This document shows positions 42,232 to 51,134 of a stretch of 51,185 nt of DNA, piece by piece. Where the stretch lies: NCBI GenBank assembly GCA_016869595.1, contig VGDT01000021.1:1-51185 (forward strand). The letters run 5' to 3'. A model generated the notes under the pieces. It saw only the letters and a program-made list of their open reading frames with translations, did no database searches and was not told the origin of the DNA. A program made the position numbers and the translations under genes. Numbering within the stretch: the first letter of the stretch is position 1; every line of letters begins with the position of its first letter. The DNA comes from Alphaproteobacteria bacterium. Lineage in GTDB: Bacteria > Pseudomonadota > Alphaproteobacteria > Rhizobiales > Beijerinckiaceae.

Positions 42232-43125
42232 TCATCCCGCGCCATTAAAATGCACGGTCCCGAAGGCCGTGCAATCATAACCGCCGAAAGCTCTCGCACG
42301 TTCTTGAAACCGCTCCGTCGCGCAGAATCGAATGAGTTTCTGAAACGGCGGATCAAAAAAAGCTTTGCGCCAGACGAGCAGATCGAAGCGCTCGACGACC
42401 AGCGGCGTGAATTTGAGTTGAAATTGGCGCGCCGCCGCTTCAATGCCTAATCCAACATCGGCCCGCCCTGCGGCGATCGCCATAGCGAGATCAGTTTCCG
42501 AGCGCTCGATCGCGTCAACGGATTTCAGGTCTGATTTGCGCAATCCCTCTTTCGACAACAGAGCTGTCAGCACCAGTTCGCTGCCGGCCTCCGGCTGACG
42601 AGACTGAAACCGGAGTTCGCCGATGTCCGCGAGGCTCTTGATGGGACGCTTTAATTTCGGCGAATACATCAGACCGCGTGTGCGTCTCGTCCATTCGATG
42701 AGCGCGACCGGCTCCTTATCGAATGACCTCCTAACCGCCGGGATGTTCCAGTCTTCGAACTGCGACGTCGGGATATGCAGCCCGGCGGCGATACATGCAT
42801 GTTCTTGCATGCGCGCGAGACCGTCGAGCGCGCCATCCATTAAGGCGGCGATCCCCGAGCGCGATTCCCGTAAGGCCCACTCGAGCAAAGGATCGTGTCC
42901 GCCGGCCATCACCAGCGGAACATCCGCCGCCGCGGATCGCTTGTTTGACCGACCCGTGTCCGGACCACTCGCCGCGATCCAATCTTCGATCTCTTTTTTC
43001 GGGAAGAGAAGTTTTCCCGTGACGCGGCGGAAAGGGAGCGCCTCTTCCGAGACAAGGTCATAGACCTTGCGCTGTTTCACCCGCAGCAGGGCCGCCAGCT
43101 CGCCGGTGGTTAGATAATCGGTCAT
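42232..43125 (-). CDS. HTH regulator with molybdate-type PBP-like domain
   Basis: 297 residues. The N-terminal 55 residues are an excisionase-type winged HTH (TTGELAALLRVKQRKVYDLVSEEALPFRR, then FPKKEIEDWI). From residue 70 a type-2 periplasmic-binding-like domain follows without a signal peptide (PLVMAGGHDPLLEWALRES, RPIKSLADIGELRFQSRQPEAGSELVL, ADVGLGIEAAARQF), the PBP_like/COG1910 pattern related to ModA. It is divergent from modA across 221 bases, so a cytoplasmic one-component sensor of molybdate or tungstate for the mod genes is the simplest reading. No ModE gene is present in the window. Confidence 0.75.
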   Translation of the reverse strand: MTDYLTTGELAALLRVKQRKVYDLVSEEALPFRRVTGKLLFPKKEIEDWIAASGPDTGRSNKRSAAADVPLVMAGGHDPLLEWALRESRSGIAALMDGALDGLARMQEHACIAAGLHIPTSQFEDWNIPAVRRSFDKEPVALIEWTRRTRGLMYSPKLKRPIKSLADIGELRFQSRQPEAGSELVLTALLSKEGLRKSDLKSVDAIERSETDLAMAIAAGRADVGLGIEAAARQFQLKFTPLVVERFDLLVWRKAFFDPPFQKLIRFCATERFQERARAFGGYDCTAFGTVHFNGAG

Positions 43126-43346: not shown

Positions 43347-44153
43347 ATGCTTGATTTTCGTAGCTGCGCTTTTGCTTTCATGACGCTTTTCGCGGCGACG
43401 CAGGTCCGCGCGGAGGCTCCGGCGACATCTGCGGCTCCGGGTGGCGGGACTGCATCTCCCACCATCACAGTTTTCGCCGCGGCCAGTCTGAAGAACGCGC
43501 TCGATGCTGCGGCCGCCGCTTACAAGAGCAAGACTGGGGTCGACACGACGATCAGCTATGCCGGCTCGATGGCGCTCGCCAAGCAGATCGAATCCGGAGC
43601 GCCTGCGGAGGTATTTCTTTCGGCCGATGTCGCCTCGATGGACTATCTCGCCGAAAGAAATCTTATCCAGCCTAAGACGCGCTTCGATCTTCTTGGCAAT
43701 ACGCTCGTCCTCATCGCGCCGCGCACATCGAAATTGGAGAAGGTGGCTCTTACGAAAGAGGCGCTCGCCTCCGCGATCGGATCAGGCAAAATCGCGACCG
43801 GCGATGTCGCCTCGGTCCCAGTCGGCAAATACGCAAAGGCGGCGCTGGACAAGCTCGGTCTCTGGAGCGTCGCTGAGCCGCATTTCGCCTTCACCGACAA
43901 TGTTCGCTCTGCGCTGATGTTTGTCGCGCGCGAGGAAGCGCCGCTTGGCATCGTCTATCTCACCGACGCCAAATCCGAGCCGAAGGTGAAAATCGTCGCG
44001 ACCTTTCCCTCGACCTCACATCCGCCAATCGTCTATCCAGTCGCTCTGACTGCAAGCGCGAAGGGCGACGCCCCAGCAAAGTTTCTCGTCTTCCTGAAGG
44101 GGCCAGAGGCGAGAGCGATCTTTGTAGAGCAGGGCTTCGTAACGTTGCACTGA
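43347..44153 (+). CDS. modA: Molybdate ABC transporter substrate-binding protein ModA
   Basis: ModA captures molybdate or tungstate in the periplasm. A signal peptide ends near residue 22 (VRA), followed by an Ala/Pro spacer and then TVFAAASLKNALDAAAAAYKSKTG, the family start with oxyanion-binding serine. VSYAGSMALAKQIESGAPAEVFLSAD-like residues (here ISYAGSMALAKQ) and the DVASVPVGKYAKAALDKLG segment complete the motif set. 268 residues. AAGGAG precedes the ATG. Unusually, an outer-membrane gene lies between modA and modB. Confidence 0.95.
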   Translation: MLDFRSCAFAFMTLFAATQVRAEAPATSAAPGGGTASPTITVFAAASLKNALDAAAAAYKSKTGVDTTISYAGSMALAKQIESGAPAEVFLSADVASMDYLAERNLIQPKTRFDLLGNTLVLIAPRTSKLEKVALTKEALASAIGSGKIATGDVASVPVGKYAKAALDKLGLWSVAEPHFAFTDNVRSALMFVAREEAPLGIVYLTDAKSEPKVKIVATFPSTSHPPIVYPVALTASAKGDAPAKFLVFLKGPEARAIFVEQGFVTLH

Positions 44154-44304
44154 GTTGCGTGTTATTGCGCAAGCGAAGCGTGTTTGAAAGAACCGACTCA
44201 AGCCGAGTTCGCATCATCTCAAATTAAGCGACGAACCGAGACGCTGCGCTTGTTGCAGATGCGCCGCCGCGCCGGCATGCTCTCAGCATCGAAGATGGTT
44301 GTTA

Positions 44305-44333
44305 TTGCGACTATTTTGCAACAGTTTTATAAA
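44305..44333 (+). promoter_or_regulatory. Sigma-70-type promoter of the outer-membrane gene
   Basis: TTGCGA (44305-44310) and TATAAA (44328-44333) stand 17 bases apart in an AT-rich patch, pointing to the outer-membrane gene and likely the downstream modBC. The start of transcription would be near 44340, leaving a leader of about 110 bases. Confidence 0.65.
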
Positions 44334-44369
44334 GAATGCTGATGTCTAAAACATAAGCTTAACAAGCGG

Positions 44370-44396
44370 GTTATATTCACCTACTCGATATATAAC
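44370..44396 (+). promoter_or_regulatory. Inverted repeat resembling a molybdate-responsive operator
   Basis: GTTATAT (44370-44376) and ATATAAC (44390-44396) are perfect 7-bp inverted repeats 13 bases apart. The arms look like those of the E. coli ModE site (GTTATATT ... ACATAAC), although the spacing is larger. It lies just after the predicted transcription start, suitable for repression. Confidence 0.45.
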
Positions 44397-44451
44397 AAAT
44401 TTACATGTCGGTTTGGCTGCCGATCTTTGAGCGGTGCGCGGAGAAATGGCG

Positions 44452-46989
44452 ATGTCGCTTGGACGAAACAACAAGAAGCTGGCGTCTGCCTCGCTCAGCG
44501 TCCTCGTCGGCGCCGTTCTAGGCGTTCCTGACGTAACGCTCGCTGGGGAAAAGGAACCGAGCATAGTTTCCGCGAAGGCGGACAAGTCCAATGCCGCAAA
44601 AACGGATGCGCCGCAAAAAGGGTCGGTGAAGACGAAGACTGATCCGAAGACCGCAGCGGGTCCCGCGGCGGCGGCGGTCGTCGTCGAGAAGAAGAGCTAT
44701 TACGTTCCAACGCGCGGCTATCGTCTGGAGCCGCAGCCCGACATTCCGCCCTATGTGCGCAATCTCGGCAAGACCTACAAGGAATTCGAAGGCATCGACT
44801 GGCTGAACGTCGGCCTCGATTCGCGCGTGCGCTTCGAATATCGCAAGGACGATTACCGGCCGTGGACCGACATGACGGTCAATCCGCCGGCCTCGCAGCG
44901 AAAATATTTTCCGAACTCGCTGTGGCTGTCGCGCACGCGCGCCTATCTAGGCGTCCAAAATATCCTCGATCCCTTCCGCTTTGTCGTCGAGCTCCAGGAC
45001 TCGCGCGCCTACAACAGCATCTATCAGTATCAGGGACAGGAGATTAATCAGACCGAATTGATCTCGGCCTATGGCGAACTCTTTTTCAAGGACGCTTTCG
45101 GCAAGGACGATCTCGGCAATGATCGGCCTTTGACGCTTCGCGCGGGGCGCTTCCATCTCGAACTGCTCGACCGTCGTCTGATCGCCGAGAATGAGTTCCG
45201 CAACACGACCAACACGTTTGACGGCTTCCGCGTAAAGATCGGCAAGAAGGACAACGACTGGGATATCGACAGTTTCGTGATGCGGCCGGTCATACGCTAT
45301 CCGGATTGGTTCGACCGGCCTGACTGGCAGAACTGGATTTACGGATCCGTGTTCAGCATTCGCCGCTGGTCGGAATATGCGACGATCCAGCCCTATTTCC
45401 TTGGCCGCAAACAATACGCCGATCCGCTCAACGTCTCGAATGCGCTGAAGGTCCATCGTGACACTTATGCGCCCGGCCTTCGCGTCTATGGCGTGATCAA
45501 AGACTTTGACTACGACTTCGATATCAACAAACAATTTGGCGAAACGGGCGAATTCCGCCAACTCGGAAATGTCCAAAACGCGGTGCAGACGACGGTGCAA
45601 CACGACGCCATCGCCTATGCGTTCGAGGCCGGCTACACATTTTCAGACCATCCATGGAAGCCGCGCATCAGCGCCAATTACGCCTATGGCTCGGGCAATA
45701 AGAGTCCCTTCGACAGCGTCAATCAGACCTTCGATATTTTCTACGGCTTCAATCAGCCGTTCTCGCGCAACGACTACTTTGCCTGGAACAATATTAAAGC
45801 CCCGAAGGCGCGTCTGGAGTTTTCGCCCTTCAAGAATCTCCAGATCGACACCGCGTTCAGCGCCTTCTGGCTGGCGAGCGCCGCGGCCGCTTGGGACCGC
45901 GCCAATTTGGTGGCGCCGCTCGGCAATAGGGGCACGTTTCTGGGCACGGAATATGATCTGCGCATCCGCTATAAACTGAACCAATTCATCAATATGACCG
46001 CGAGCTATGCGCGGTTCTGGCCGGGCTCGTTCACGTCAAGCTTTGCGCCACCGGTCAACCTGCAGCCCTTCTTCCCACAGTCTTTCCCTGGACAGACCAC
46101 GACGACGAATGGGCTCACCGCGCGGCCGACCGATTTCTTCTATCTTGAGGTCACCGCCAACGCCTTTGGCGACGGCAATCCGATCACCAAGCCGCCGGGC
46201 GCGGATTTCCTCGCTCTCTTTTCGCTTGAGGGGCCTCCGCCGCCTCCGCCGCCGCCGAGTTGGTGCGATGTTTATGTCGGCCTCAATGCCGGCGGCGCCA
46301 GGTCGAATCCCCGGTCGATTGTGCAGCCATGGCCCTTTGGCGGCGCTATCGCCAGTCCAACAGTCGCCATCGGCGCGACGCCAATCGACCAGACAAACCA
46401 TCTCGCCGGTTTCCTCGGCGGTTTTCAGCTTGGCGCCAATTGGAAATTCGCCGACAGCATCCTCGTCGGCGGCGAGGCGGATCTCCATGGCGTCTCGGGC
46501 AATACCGACACCAGATGGCAAGCGACGTTGAGCGCCGCCGGCGGCAATAGTTTCGCGACCTATGCGCAGCGCACGGCGACGCTCAACTATCTCGGCGCCA
46601 TCCGAGGCCGATTGGGCTATCTCGTCACCCCGACGCTCGCCGTCTACGGTACGGGCGGCATGGCCTATGGCGGCGTCATCTCCAACGGCGCGATCTTCAC
46701 CCGCCGCATCGGCGGGACCAACCAGACGCTGGTCAATCCGGTCTATCAGGACAGCTTGATCGGCTGGACGGCGGGCGGCGGCGCCGAATGGATGTTTACG
46801 CCTGAGTGGAGCGTCAAGGTCGATTATCTTCGCTACGATCTCGGCGCTGCCCAGGGGTTCAATTACGCGGCGCAGTCGGCGGGTTTCTATGACTATGGCG
46901 CGACAAGCTCGACGCGCTTCAATGGCAACCTCGTCCACGCCGGCGTCAACCGCCATTTCGATCTCGTTAGCGTGCTCCAAGCAAAATAG
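44452..46989 (+). CDS. Outer-membrane protein fusing an AlgE-like barrel and an Omp25/31-like barrel
   Basis: 845 residues. A signal peptide (to about residue 31) is followed by a Lys/Ala-rich linker (35-80). Residues 85-590 match the alginate-export (AlgE-like) porin type: LNVGLDSRVRFEYRKDDYRPW, SLWLSRTRAYLGVQNILDPF, LRAGRFHLELLDRRLIAENEFRN and further alternating aromatic strands. A run of eight prolines (595-602) then leads to a second complete barrel pattern: WCDVYVGLNAGGAR, GGFQLGANWKF, LNYLGAIRGRLGYLVTPTLAVYGTGGMAYGG, WTAGGGAEWMFTPEWSVKVDYLRYDLG, ending VHAGVNRHFDLV. Start ATG 44452 has GGAG eight bases upstream; ATG 44446 and GTG 44434 are too close to it. It lies inside the mod locus, which suggests oxyanion passage across the outer membrane. 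Confidence 0.8.
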   Translation: MSLGRNNKKLASASLSVLVGAVLGVPDVTLAGEKEPSIVSAKADKSNAAKTDAPQKGSVKTKTDPKTAAGPAAAAVVVEKKSYYVPTRGYRLEPQPDIPPYVRNLGKTYKEFEGIDWLNVGLDSRVRFEYRKDDYRPWTDMTVNPPASQRKYFPNSLWLSRTRAYLGVQNILDPFRFVVELQDSRAYNSIYQYQGQEINQTELISAYGELFFKDAFGKDDLGNDRPLTLRAGRFHLELLDRRLIAENEFRNTTNTFDGFRVKIGKKDNDWDIDSFVMRPVIRYPDWFDRPDWQNWIYGSVFSIRRWSEYATIQPYFLGRKQYADPLNVSNALKVHRDTYAPGLRVYGVIKDFDYDFDINKQFGETGEFRQLGNVQNAVQTTVQHDAIAYAFEAGYTFSDHPWKPRISANYAYGSGNKSPFDSVNQTFDIFYGFNQPFSRNDYFAWNNIKAPKARLEFSPFKNLQIDTAFSAFWLASAAAAWDRANLVAPLGNRGTFLGTEYDLRIRYKLNQFINMTASYARFWPGSFTSSFAPPVNLQPFFPQSFPGQTTTTNGLTARPTDFFYLEVTANAFGDGNPITKPPGADFLALFSLEGPPPPPPPPSWCDVYVGLNAGGARSNPRSIVQPWPFGGAIASPTVAIGATPIDQTNHLAGFLGGFQLGANWKFADSILVGGEADLHGVSGNTDTRWQATLSAAGGNSFATYAQRTATLNYLGAIRGRLGYLVTPTLAVYGTGGMAYGGVISNGAIFTRRIGGTNQTLVNPVYQDSLIGWTAGGGAEWMFTPEWSVKVDYLRYDLGAAQGFNYAAQSAGFYDYGATSSTRFNGNLVHAGVNRHFDLVSVLQAK

Positions 46990-47272
46990 GAGGCCAGGAA
47001 AGCGACTTCTTATGCGATGGCGGTTGCGGTTGTCGCCCCGGAATCGCCCGGAACGCCAGCGGATTCGCCGGCGCTAGCCAAAGCCTTTCTGTTCCGCCAA
47101 TATATAGCGCCAACAAACCATCGCCGCTCGGTTGCACTGTTGCTTTCTCGCGCATCCGTCGTTCGAGCGCGAGCGAAGGCGCGATGCATCGGGGCGCGCT
47201 CGTCTCAACCTAATTAACGGCGGGATCGCTCTTCAAAACCTACTATATCCGAGGTCGCCAAAGGACGCAGCA
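46990..47272. other. Spacer between the outer-membrane gene and modB
   Basis: The 283 bases hold no supported gene. A CGCCAATATATAGCGCC patch (47096-47112), reading GGCGCTATATATTGGCG on the other strand, recalls a molybdate-type operator half-site and could be a second control point. An AAAGGA just before 47273 sets the modB start. Confidence 0.45.
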
Positions 47273-47989
47273 TTGCCCGACTTCCCCGCCGCACTTTTCG
47301 AATTGTCGCCCGCTGAATGGACAGCGATACGGCTCTCTCTGCGGATCGCAACAGTGGCGACTCTCGCGAGCCTGCCCTTTGGCATTCTCACGGCTTATGC
47401 GCTTGCGCGTTGCCAGTTTCCTGGCAAGACCCTTGTCAACGGCATGGTCCACCTGCCCTTGGTTCTGCCGCCAGTGGTCACGGGCTTTGTGCTGCTCATG
47501 TTGCTCGGACGCAAAGGCGTTTTTGGTCCCTTTCTCGCAGAGATTGGCGTCGTTTTCTCCTTTCGCTGGACTGGCGCGGCGGTCGCTTGCGCCGTCATGG
47601 CGTTTCCTCTGATGGTCCGGGCAATGCGGCTGTCTTTCGAAGCGATTGATCGACGCTTGGAGCTCGCGTCGGAGACGCTGGGCGCCAACCGAATTTGGAC
47701 GTTCTTCCTGATCAACCTCCCGCTCGCAGTTCCAGGAATTATCGTTGGAGCCATTCTCGCTTTTGCAAAGGCCCTGGGAGAGTTCGGGGCGACGATCACC
47801 TTCGTCTCCAACATTCCCGGCGAGACTCAGACGATTTCAGCTGCGATATACAGCTACACGCAGGTTCCGGGCGGTGACGCGGCCGCAATGCGTTTGACGA
47901 TCGTCGCGGTCTTCATCGCCTTTTCCGCTCTTGTGGCTTCCGAAATCATTCAGTGGCGAGCTGCGAAACGTCTCGGGAACGTCGAATGA
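47273..47989 (+). CDS. modB: Molybdate ABC transporter permease ModB
   Basis: The inner-membrane channel subunit. Starting at TTG 47273 after AAAGGA gives MPDFPAALFELSPAEWTAIRLSL and 238 residues, the usual size; a longer frame to 47132 would add 47 residues without homology. Five to six membrane helices and the EAA loop ASETLGANRIWTFFLINLPLAVPGI are visible, which contacts ModC. Its stop overlaps the modC start (ATGA). Confidence 0.93.
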   Translation: MPDFPAALFELSPAEWTAIRLSLRIATVATLASLPFGILTAYALARCQFPGKTLVNGMVHLPLVLPPVVTGFVLLMLLGRKGVFGPFLAEIGVVFSFRWTGAAVACAVMAFPLMVRAMRLSFEAIDRRLELASETLGANRIWTFFLINLPLAVPGIIVGAILAFAKALGEFGATITFVSNIPGETQTISAAIYSYTQVPGGDAAAMRLTIVAVFIAFSALVASEIIQWRAAKRLGNVE

Positions 47990-49089
47990 TCGAGGTCGAC
48001 GTCAGGTTGCAGGTCGGAGCGTTTTCTCTGGATGTCGCTTTTGCAAATGGCGCGGGCGTAACGGCGCTGTTCGGCCAATCCGGATCCGGCAAATCGCTGA
48101 CGCTCAGCATCATCGCGGGATTGATAAAGCCCGACGCGGGTTACGTCAGGCTGGACGGCGATACGCTTGTTGACGTCGCGACGGGCGTTTTCGTGCCCGT
48201 GTCGCGCCGGCGCATCGGCCTCGTATTCCAAGATTCCAACCTGTTCCCGCACCTTAGCGTAAAGCAAAATCTACTGTACGGACGATGGTTTGCCCCAGAG
48301 GGCGAACGCCGGATCGATTTCGACGCCGTTGTTGAAACTCTGGGAATTGCAAACCTCGTCTCGCGCTCGCCAACGCGTCTCTCGGGCGGCGAGAGACAAC
48401 GCGTCGCGATCGGCCGCGCTTTGCTGTCCTGCCCGAGGCTGCTGCTACTGGATGAGCCGCTCGCGGCGCTGGACATGCAGCGAAAGCTCGAGATCCTGCC
48501 ATTGATCGAGCGCGTCAGGGACGAGTTCGACGTTCCCATCATTTACGTGTCCCACGCTGTCGAAGAAGTGCTTCGTCTCGCCTCCCGCGTCGTTATCATC
48601 GACGCTGGCCGGGTGACGTCGGTCGGCGAGCCCGCCGAGGCGTTCAATCGTATCGCTGGGGCGCCGGCGGCAAACCGCTTTGACCGCTCTTCCATTCTGG
48701 CGGCCACGGTAGAACAAACATCTGTTGCGCATGGATTGACGAAGCTAAATCACCCTGCCGGCACGATCTGGGTCGCGGGTTCGGCGGGAAATTGCGGAAG
48801 CCTTGCGCGTGTCATCGTTAAAGCGACGGACGTCATATTGTCGCGTGTTTTGCCTCAAGAGATCAGCACGCGTAGCATTCTTTCGGGTAAGGTCGCCAAT
48901 ATACAATTCGACGGCGCAATCGCGACGATCGAGATTGAGCTTAAGGACGACGGACGGCTTCTGGCCACCATTACGCGGGGCGCTCTGGAGGATCTCGCGC
49001 TCAAACCCGGTTCTTACGTCTATGCACTGTTCAAGACGGCTGCTCTCGACGAGCGATCTATCGGCATGGCTAGCGCTCAAGTCGAGTGA
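47986..49089 (+). CDS. modC: Molybdate ABC transporter ATPase ModC
   Basis: Energises molybdate import. Walker A GQSGSGKS is at about residue 32, signature LSGGERQR and Walker B LLLLDEPLAALD follow, then the SHAVEEV switch. The C-terminal 110 residues form a TOBE/Mop domain (SLARVIVKATDVILSRVLPQEISTRS) that usually binds molybdate and regulates the pump. 367 residues. Start ATG 47986 overlaps modB. Its stop is followed within six bases by the remnant of an MgtA gene. Confidence 0.95.
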   Translation: MIEVDVRLQVGAFSLDVAFANGAGVTALFGQSGSGKSLTLSIIAGLIKPDAGYVRLDGDTLVDVATGVFVPVSRRRIGLVFQDSNLFPHLSVKQNLLYGRWFAPEGERRIDFDAVVETLGIANLVSRSPTRLSGGERQRVAIGRALLSCPRLLLLDEPLAALDMQRKLEILPLIERVRDEFDVPIIYVSHAVEEVLRLASRVVIIDAGRVTSVGEPAEAFNRIAGAPAANRFDRSSILAATVEQTSVAHGLTKLNHPAGTIWVAGSAGNCGSLARVIVKATDVILSRVLPQEISTRSILSGKVANIQFDGAIATIEIELKDDGRLLATITRGALEDLALKPGSYVYALFKTAALDERSIGMASAQVE

Positions 49090-50582: not shown

Positions 50583-50729
50583 TCATTTCGAAGCTCTTCC
50601 ACAATATCCGCCTCTACGCCATAGCACGATAAGCAAATGATATTACGTATAATTTGCTTCGCCATCGTTTCCGGCTGCAAGCTGTGATTTTCTTTCTTGT
50701 GGTCACCATATGGTCACCAAGGATTGCCT

Positions 50730-51134
50730 ATGACCGAACGGACTGGGAAGCTGACCAAGCGGATGGTGGACGCCGCCGCGCCCGAGGCGGAACGTTACAT
50801 CGTCTGGGATAGCGTGTTAAAGGGCTTTGGTCTGCGGATCGAACCCTCCGGGACCAAGACGTTTCTAGTTCGCTACCGCGCCGCTGGCCGCAAGCGCTTT
50901 GTCGCCATCGGCCGTTTCGGCCAGTTGACGCCCGAGCAAGCGCGCGGCCTCGCCCAAGAGACGCTGGCCGACGTTCGGCGGGGGCGCGACCCGGCCGATG
51001 AGAGACGCCGCGAGCGGGCGGCGCTCTCGGTCGCCGATCTCGCCGCCCGTTTCCTCGACGAACATGTCAGCGCCAAGCGCAAGGGGGATGTCCCGCTCGC
51101 TGTTGAAAAGCGAGCAGCGGGCGTCGTTGGTTGA
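50730..51134 (+). pseudogene. Tyrosine recombinase (P4-type integrase), truncated
   Basis: MTERTGKLTKRMVDAAAPEA, YIVWDSVLKGFGLRIEPSG, KTFLVRYRAAGRKRFVAIG and FGQLTPEQARGLAQE are the arm-binding N-terminal domain of P4-like integrases. After SVADLAARFLDEHVSAKRKG the similarity stops and the frame ends at residue 134, where about 270 more residues with the catalytic Arg/His/Tyr are expected. The start ATG 50730 follows AAGGA. Probably inactive in its own right, unless the rest lies beyond a further insertion or a frameshift outside the window. It lies 148 bases from the tRNA-Lys fragment. Confidence 0.75.

Follow-up and report, generated by a model that had tools for sequence, protein, structure and literature searches.

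Why does a gene for two fused outer-membrane barrels lie inside a molybdate transport locus? The question is raised by a stretch of 51,185 nucleotides (hereafter the window; positions 1 to 51,185 of contig VGDT01000021.1 of assembly GCA_016869595.1, from a methanotroph of the Beijerinckiaceae), in which such a fusion gene (44452-46989, + strand) is present. It is preceded by modA, coding for the molybdate-binding protein (43347-44153, +; TIGR01256, 192.3 bits, cut-off 62.5), and followed by modB, coding for the molybdate permease (47225-47989, +, start uncertain; PRK09421, 338.9 bits, cut-off 262), and modC, coding for the molybdate ABC ATPase with a TOBE domain (47986-49089, +; TIGR02142, 396.2 bits, cut-off 285). 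These NCBIfam matches agree with an earlier note on the letters of the window, which had placed the gene between modA and modB and had read it as a dedicated outer-membrane route for molybdate or tungstate; no NCBIfam family was matched by the fusion itself. The crossing of the outer membrane by molybdate is usually left to general porins, and both nitrogen fixation and formate oxidation in methanotrophs depend on molybdenum. We propose, with a probability of roughly 0.6, that tetrahedral oxyanions pass the outer membrane through this protein, a pore that would serve both the molybdate importer ModABC and the sulfate importer CysPTWA and would be made under molybdenum shortage where its operator is present. 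Overall, the earlier observation is confirmed and the earlier interpretation is only partly supported.

The fusion gene lies in an uninterrupted frame that opens with GTG 44434 and is closed by the stop codon at 46989. It codes for 845 amino acids from ATG 44452 (847 from ATG 44446), and the start methionine of the relatives aligns with M3 of the window protein, which corresponds to ATG 44452. A putative Sec signal peptide (44452-44547), judged by eye, is followed by a large N-terminal barrel region (residues 85-590; 44698-46215), in which Pfam Alginate_exp (PF13372; TC 1.B.13) is matched at residues 119-530 (44800-46038; E 1.9e-75, 254.6 bits, cut-off 25.2) over positions 2-381 of the 395 of the profile. 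The small C-terminal barrel (46258-46959), with about eight strands in the structural model, matches Pfam OMP_b-brl (PF13505; TC 1.B.4 in part) at residues 654-810 (E 1.4e-10, 42.1 bits, cut-off 28.7). The two families are therefore united in a single open frame, and each half gave the separate profile match that the earlier note had expected. Two of its details fared less well. The eight prolines that it described between the barrels are present in the window protein (residues 597-604; 46234-46257) but restricted to the clade of the window, the linkers of other clades having few or zero prolines, and the run was rejected as a defining linker. The chain also lacks the aromatic C-terminus claimed for it, because the final strand stops at F838 and is followed by nine residues (46960-46986); all 34 complete copies of the genus have a tail at this end.

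A first contig-level search for the fusion returned 14 loci, mostly titled Methylocystis, and the survey of the genus covered 39 Methylocystis genomes. The large barrel occurs at 36 places in 29 of them; 34 of these places are complete frames, all carrying both barrels, and the other two are cut by contig ends. A sequencing or assembly artefact fusing two genes, for example through a frameshift, a possibility raised by the earlier note itself, has a negligible probability and was rejected, as all complete copies are in-frame fusions, those of complete genomes included, and the fusion is also in print (PMC4827864). In 13 relatives, identity to the window protein is 63-94% in the large barrel and 49-88% in the small one, and 228 of the 506 residues of the large barrel are invariant across 14 relatives. 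Outside the genus, one of ten genomes of a neighbouring genus harbors the fusion, in two copies, and an Alginate_exp match was found in 44 of the 397 genomes of a wider sample of the order, where the only strong matches in frames longer than 800 amino acids are three from the genus of the window. The genome of the window itself has one Alginate_exp match. Some chains carry three barrels, in the order large-small-small in genomes G057 and G178 and small-large-small in G146 (locus L053:6579-9923, +, 1115 amino acids). At four loci (L009, L107, L108 and L109) the first small barrel is a separate gene just upstream of the fusion. Genome G541 of the order survey also has a frame of 1193 amino acids, which matched weakly (24.9 bits).

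The neighbors of the fusion in the genus extend the picture beyond molybdate. All or part of cysPTWA lies directly upstream of the fusion at 24 of the 36 places (cysP alone in L098, a set cut by the contig end in L115), which makes it the commonest neighbor, and a gene resembling trans-aconitate methyltransferase (tam) usually stands between the two. The mod genes are found beside the fusion at seven places, two of which (L099 and L100) also have cysPTWA, and at two of the seven a molbindin gene (mop), coding for a Mo-pterin-binding domain protein, lies between the fusion and modB. Three further places have pairs of binding proteins, one member being ModA by NCBIfam, and a single place has a weakly matching sulfatase-like gene (59.6 bits, cut-off 481) oriented toward the fusion. 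The link to mod genes is thus conserved in relatives, as the earlier note had it, whereas dedication to molybdate is not supported, given the predominance of cysPTWA over mod genes and the near-identical copies found in both contexts. Such copies come from the seven genomes of the genus that carry the fusion twice. In G150, G114 and G164 one copy is cys-linked and the other modA-linked, and their coding DNA is 99.3, 99.4 and 96.9% identical, respectively, whereas the DNA upstream is unrelated (41-57% identical). One and the same protein is therefore found in both a sulfate and a molybdate setting. In G017 the two copies (L048 and L049) agree at 97.7% of the final 700 bases and at 84.1% of the first 1500, counted from residue 85, a pattern as after gene conversion; the copies of G152, G153 and G167 are less alike (72-74%).

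A second line of evidence comes from the DNA upstream of the fusion. In the window, a ModE-type operator, CGATATATA-N7-TACATGTCG (44386-44410), has one mismatch to the motif CGNTATNTA-N7-TANATANCG, and its centre lies 48-54 bp upstream of the two candidate ATGs; in many copies a dyad CGATATGTA-N7-TACATATCG is found about 80 bp upstream of the start codon. The available text of PMC545781 gives ATCGNTATATA-N6-TATATANCGAT as the Escherichia coli ModE consensus, which is the same as the motif of the genus apart from the spacer, 7 here and 6 there. Among the 36 upstream regions, 13 have a perfect motif and four have one mismatch, whereas shuffled regions gave zero sites at two mismatches or fewer and 0.2 per set at three. 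A molybdate-type operator, which the earlier note had called possible, therefore exists, and with it the link to molybdate, but the conserved site is not the kind of dyad that the note had in mind. That dyad, GTTATAT-N13-ATATAAC (44370-44396), has perfect 7-bp arms and overlaps the conserved operator; of the upstream regions compared, only that of the window contains it, and it was rejected as the operator. A further conserved block before modB (47085-47109, +) holds a half-site TATATAGCG, with three mismatches to the full operator, and is kept in L097 and L100 amid diverged DNA. A sigma-70 scan of 44150-44452 found no promoter-like site.

A scan of the 39 genomes for sites with no more than one mismatch gave 48, compared with 14 when the motif was run backwards as a control. 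The 13 perfect sites all precede the fusion gene. Of the 48, 17 belong to the fusion, 12 have a ModE homologue at a distance of 0.4-1.4 kb, and 19 are in neither position. Two of the five inspected among the latter (L120, L126, L130, L132 and L133) are clearly molybdenum-related, lying about 120 bp upstream of vnfD (985.7 bits, cut-off 823.1) and of a gene for a NifA-like activator. In L120 (G114), a site with one mismatch was observed about 30 bp upstream of a hybrid-cluster (prismane) gene, with its frame at 1552. In the genome of the window, the operator of the fusion is the only site with at most one mismatch. A ModE homologue is present in 34 of the 39 genomes, including that of the window, where it lies on contig C17 and combines HTH_1 with two TOBE stretches (TIGR00637, 96.3 bits, cut-off 98.5). 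According to the available text of PMC6925177, the ModE homologues MopA and MopB of Rhodobacter capsulatus repress modABC, anfA and morAB through Mo-boxes when molybdenum is present, and by analogy these targets would fit the sites found before vnfD and the NifA-like gene. The corresponding set here comprises modE, vnfD, the NifA-like gene and the fusion, and that text contains no occurrence of 'porin' or 'outer membrane'.

These features can be joined in a simple scheme. The Alginate_exp barrel would be the pore, through which small tetrahedral oxyanions (molybdate, sulfate and perhaps tungstate) may diffuse to the periplasmic ModA and, in most relatives, to the sulfate-binding protein of CysPTWA. 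The OMP_b-brl barrel would be a fused accessory module, acting as an anchor, an assembly aid or a second small pore. Fusion genes that have the operator would be repressed by molybdate-loaded ModE bound to it, and the pore would therefore be made when molybdenum is short. Fusion, neighbors, operator and ModE homologue are observed features, while pore activity, substrates, direction of regulation and the role of the small barrel are inferred from them. More tentatively, and at slightly less than even odds, a ModE-regulated pore of two and sometimes three barrels may be shared by the two importers, such that single-copy species would use one molybdenum-controlled pore for both anions, and some two-copy species would keep near-identical proteins under the separate control of their sulfate and molybdate loci.

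Several observations weigh against this proposal. Many of the genomes surveyed are closely related, and all counts are inflated and do not represent independent events. The operator is missing at 19 of the 36 places, where the upstream regions have four to six mismatches, the level of chance. In the seven genomes with two copies, none of the cys-linked copies has it, and G114, G164, G152, G153 and G167 lack it at both; operators at one copy are found in G150 (mod-linked) and G017 (the copy without cys genes). Single-copy genomes have the operator in 15 of 22 cases and lack it in seven; M. rosea SV97, for instance, has its one copy linked to cys genes and preceded by a perfect site. No ModE match reached the NCBIfam curated cut-off in any of the 39 genomes, and no operator was found upstream of modA in the window or within 4 kb of the modE gene of the same genome. 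Three of the 36 places (L054, L114 and L117) have none of the neighbors described above. The net charge of the large barrel is just +1, which offers no argument for anion selectivity, and 31 of its arginines are invariant in 14 sequences. Membership of an AlgE-like family would by itself point to polymer export. Structure prediction is of little help, as the AlphaFold models, built with 14 close sequences, have a mean pLDDT of 40.7 (full chain) and 40.1 (large barrel alone) and are too poor for two barrels to be shown. In the full-chain model, values of 70-87 are confined to the strands of the small barrel. With this low-confidence model, Foldseek ranks Ail, OmpA and OmpX first, which are the closest fold matches for the OMP_b-brl part and superpose loosely (TM by target 0.47-0.56, rmsd about 11-12). 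AlgE follows at ranks 38, 40 and 44 (E near 1e-4), which was not counted as evidence for the large barrel. Sequence searches of the Protein Data Bank gave no significant match for the large barrel (best E 1.4 and 0.94).

The abundance of cysPTWA neighbors raises the question of whether the protein is primarily a sulfate porin of that operon, its mod location and ModE site being secondary and used, for example, to balance the entry of sulfate against that of molybdate. Cys-linked copies without operator are indeed common (11 of 24), but the other 13 of the 24 do have the ModE-type site, the perfect sites of the genus all stand at the fusion, and several lineages (L051, L110, L112 and the window) came to have mod-linked copies; we regard this explanation as unlikely. 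Less likely still, the protein could be a general porin, or have a structural role in the outer membrane, and lie near transporters only incidentally. This reading would fit the ten genomes of the genus, some of them incomplete, in which no copy was found, and the abundance of OMP_b-brl barrels in these genomes. However, association with oxyanion importers recurs in the genus, whereas 20 loci with stand-alone Alginate_exp genes, taken from the surveys of the family and the order and probed by tblastn with the mod and cys proteins, show no mod or sulfate-permease neighbor; L181 and L055 gave the only matches, both to generic ABC ATPases. An incidental location would also leave the upstream operator unaccounted for. 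Finally, an export channel like AlgE, for a polymer or for a Mo-binding metallophore released under molybdenum shortage, would agree with the family resemblance to Alginate_exp and, in the case of a metallophore, with molybdenum-type regulation. This seems very improbable, as the copies of the relatives stand with importers and no gene for the biosynthesis of alginate, another polymer or a metallophore was found among the eight scanned neighbors in the window.

If correct, an oxyanion pore shared by ModABC and CysPTWA would imply a dedicated outer-membrane step in bacterial molybdate uptake and would give a function to a class of multi-barrel proteins so far described by sequence alone. A ModE-type site that lies before a porin-like gene and matches its motif perfectly in 13 genomes of the genus makes such a step testable, and genomes that naturally hold both a cysPTWA-linked and a modA-linked copy, 97-99% identical to each other, would allow regulation to be separated from the protein. 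The result is also a first functional lead for the fused barrels of Methylocystis and Methylosinus, which were catalogued in 2016 without substrate.

Known systems offer partial parallels. Anion-specific pores of the OprP type are induced by scarcity of their anion, the manganese channel MnoP is under metal-responsive control, and AlgE is a stand-alone exporter within the alginate operon. Multi-barrel outer-membrane proteins were reportedly treated by Solan et al. in 2021. OprP-type porins would work alike, but they belong to a different family, to which the window protein has no Pfam match. The alginate exporter AlgE of Pseudomonas aeruginosa shares the Pfam family of the large barrel and has a barrel of 18 strands (PMC4827864). 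MnoP of Bradyrhizobium japonicum, an outer-membrane channel for manganese, is a fusion of OMP_b-brl and OprB (PMC4827864 and the available text of PMC11941057); as described there it resembles the fusion in having two joined barrels, one of them OMP_b-brl, and in taking up a trace element beside a specific inner-membrane importer, and it differs in its large barrel (OprB, not Alginate_exp), its domain order and its substrate, a cation and not an oxyanion. Several barrels in one chain are also known from proteins such as GfcD, according to the available text of PMC11494523. The closest relatives by description are TC 1.B.4.1.2 (AEP-BRP) and TC 1.B.4.1.1 (BRP-AEP-BRP), with the same two families, the same AEP-then-BRP order and the same genera, and the three-barrel form TC 1.B.4.1.1 has 1115 amino acids, as does the frame in L053. 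The architecture is thus already known, since PMC4827864 described it in Methylosinus and Methylocystis, without function. That paper gives no substrate, neighbors or regulation for either entry, and 'molybdate' and 'sulfate' are absent from its main text. The earlier note knew of no molybdate-specific porin of such build; the build itself is not new, but no description of a link between the fusion and molybdenum or sulfate uptake was found in the open-licence PMC papers searched. New here are cysPTWA as the commonest neighbor, the near-identical cys-linked and mod-linked copies, and the ModE-type operator before the fusion.

The gene order of relatives suggests how the fusion came to lie within the mod locus. 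L100 has modA-cysPTWA-tam-fusion-mop-modBC, L099 has modA-cysPTWA-tam-fusion up to the contig end, and L097 has modA, a tam remnant (the last 32 residues), the fusion, mop and modBC. The order in the window is modA-fusion-modBC, in which remnants of tam or mop were looked for and not found. A cysPTWA-tam-fusion cassette may have entered between modA and modB, and the fusion would now stand inside the mod locus because this cassette later lost its cysPTWA. Insertion followed by loss of the transporter is probably the simplest account of the gene order of the window, although the order of events is itself inferred. The same genome has a cysPTWA and tam set on a separate contig (C29, L047). A second, cys-linked copy of the fusion was considered there and rejected, as C29 resembles the relatives only to about the start codon of the fusion and then continues with other sequence to the contig end (bases 1 to about 180). 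An IS630-type transposase is an unproven reading of this end, given a weak Pfam match (E 0.21) and a single occurrence of these 177 bases in the assembly.

Upstream of modA, the window carries a divergent regulator (42232-43125, -) with PBP_like (1.4e-52) and HTH_17 (1.3e-11) domains by Pfam. Its relatives adjoin modA in L110, L051 and L112, and this protein is a possible molybdate sensor, second beside ModE. Near the window end, an Arm-DNA-bind_3 domain (50697-51134, +; Pfam) marks the start of a phage-type integrase. A search for the hydrogenase small subunit gave no match in the genome of the window.

Other multi-barrel frames were encountered along the way. A small-barrel paralogue is located on C3 (56112-56912, frame 583) and is not in the ORF (open reading frame) list of L188. 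Frames of 1181 and 1169 amino acids in G016 (L192:672-4214, -) and G056 (L193:936-4442, -) combine a two-partner secretion pore of the ShlB/FhaC type, with its POTRA domain, and two OMP_b-brl barrels. In the genome of the window, a 596-amino-acid frame on contig C15 (L189:751-2538, +) has OMP_b-brl at 349-552 and a barrel-like N-terminal half without Pfam match, and a 617-amino-acid frame on contig C44 (L190:128-1978, +), with a C-terminal OprB domain by Pfam and an N-terminal part that aligns to the small barrel, resembles fusions of the MnoP type.

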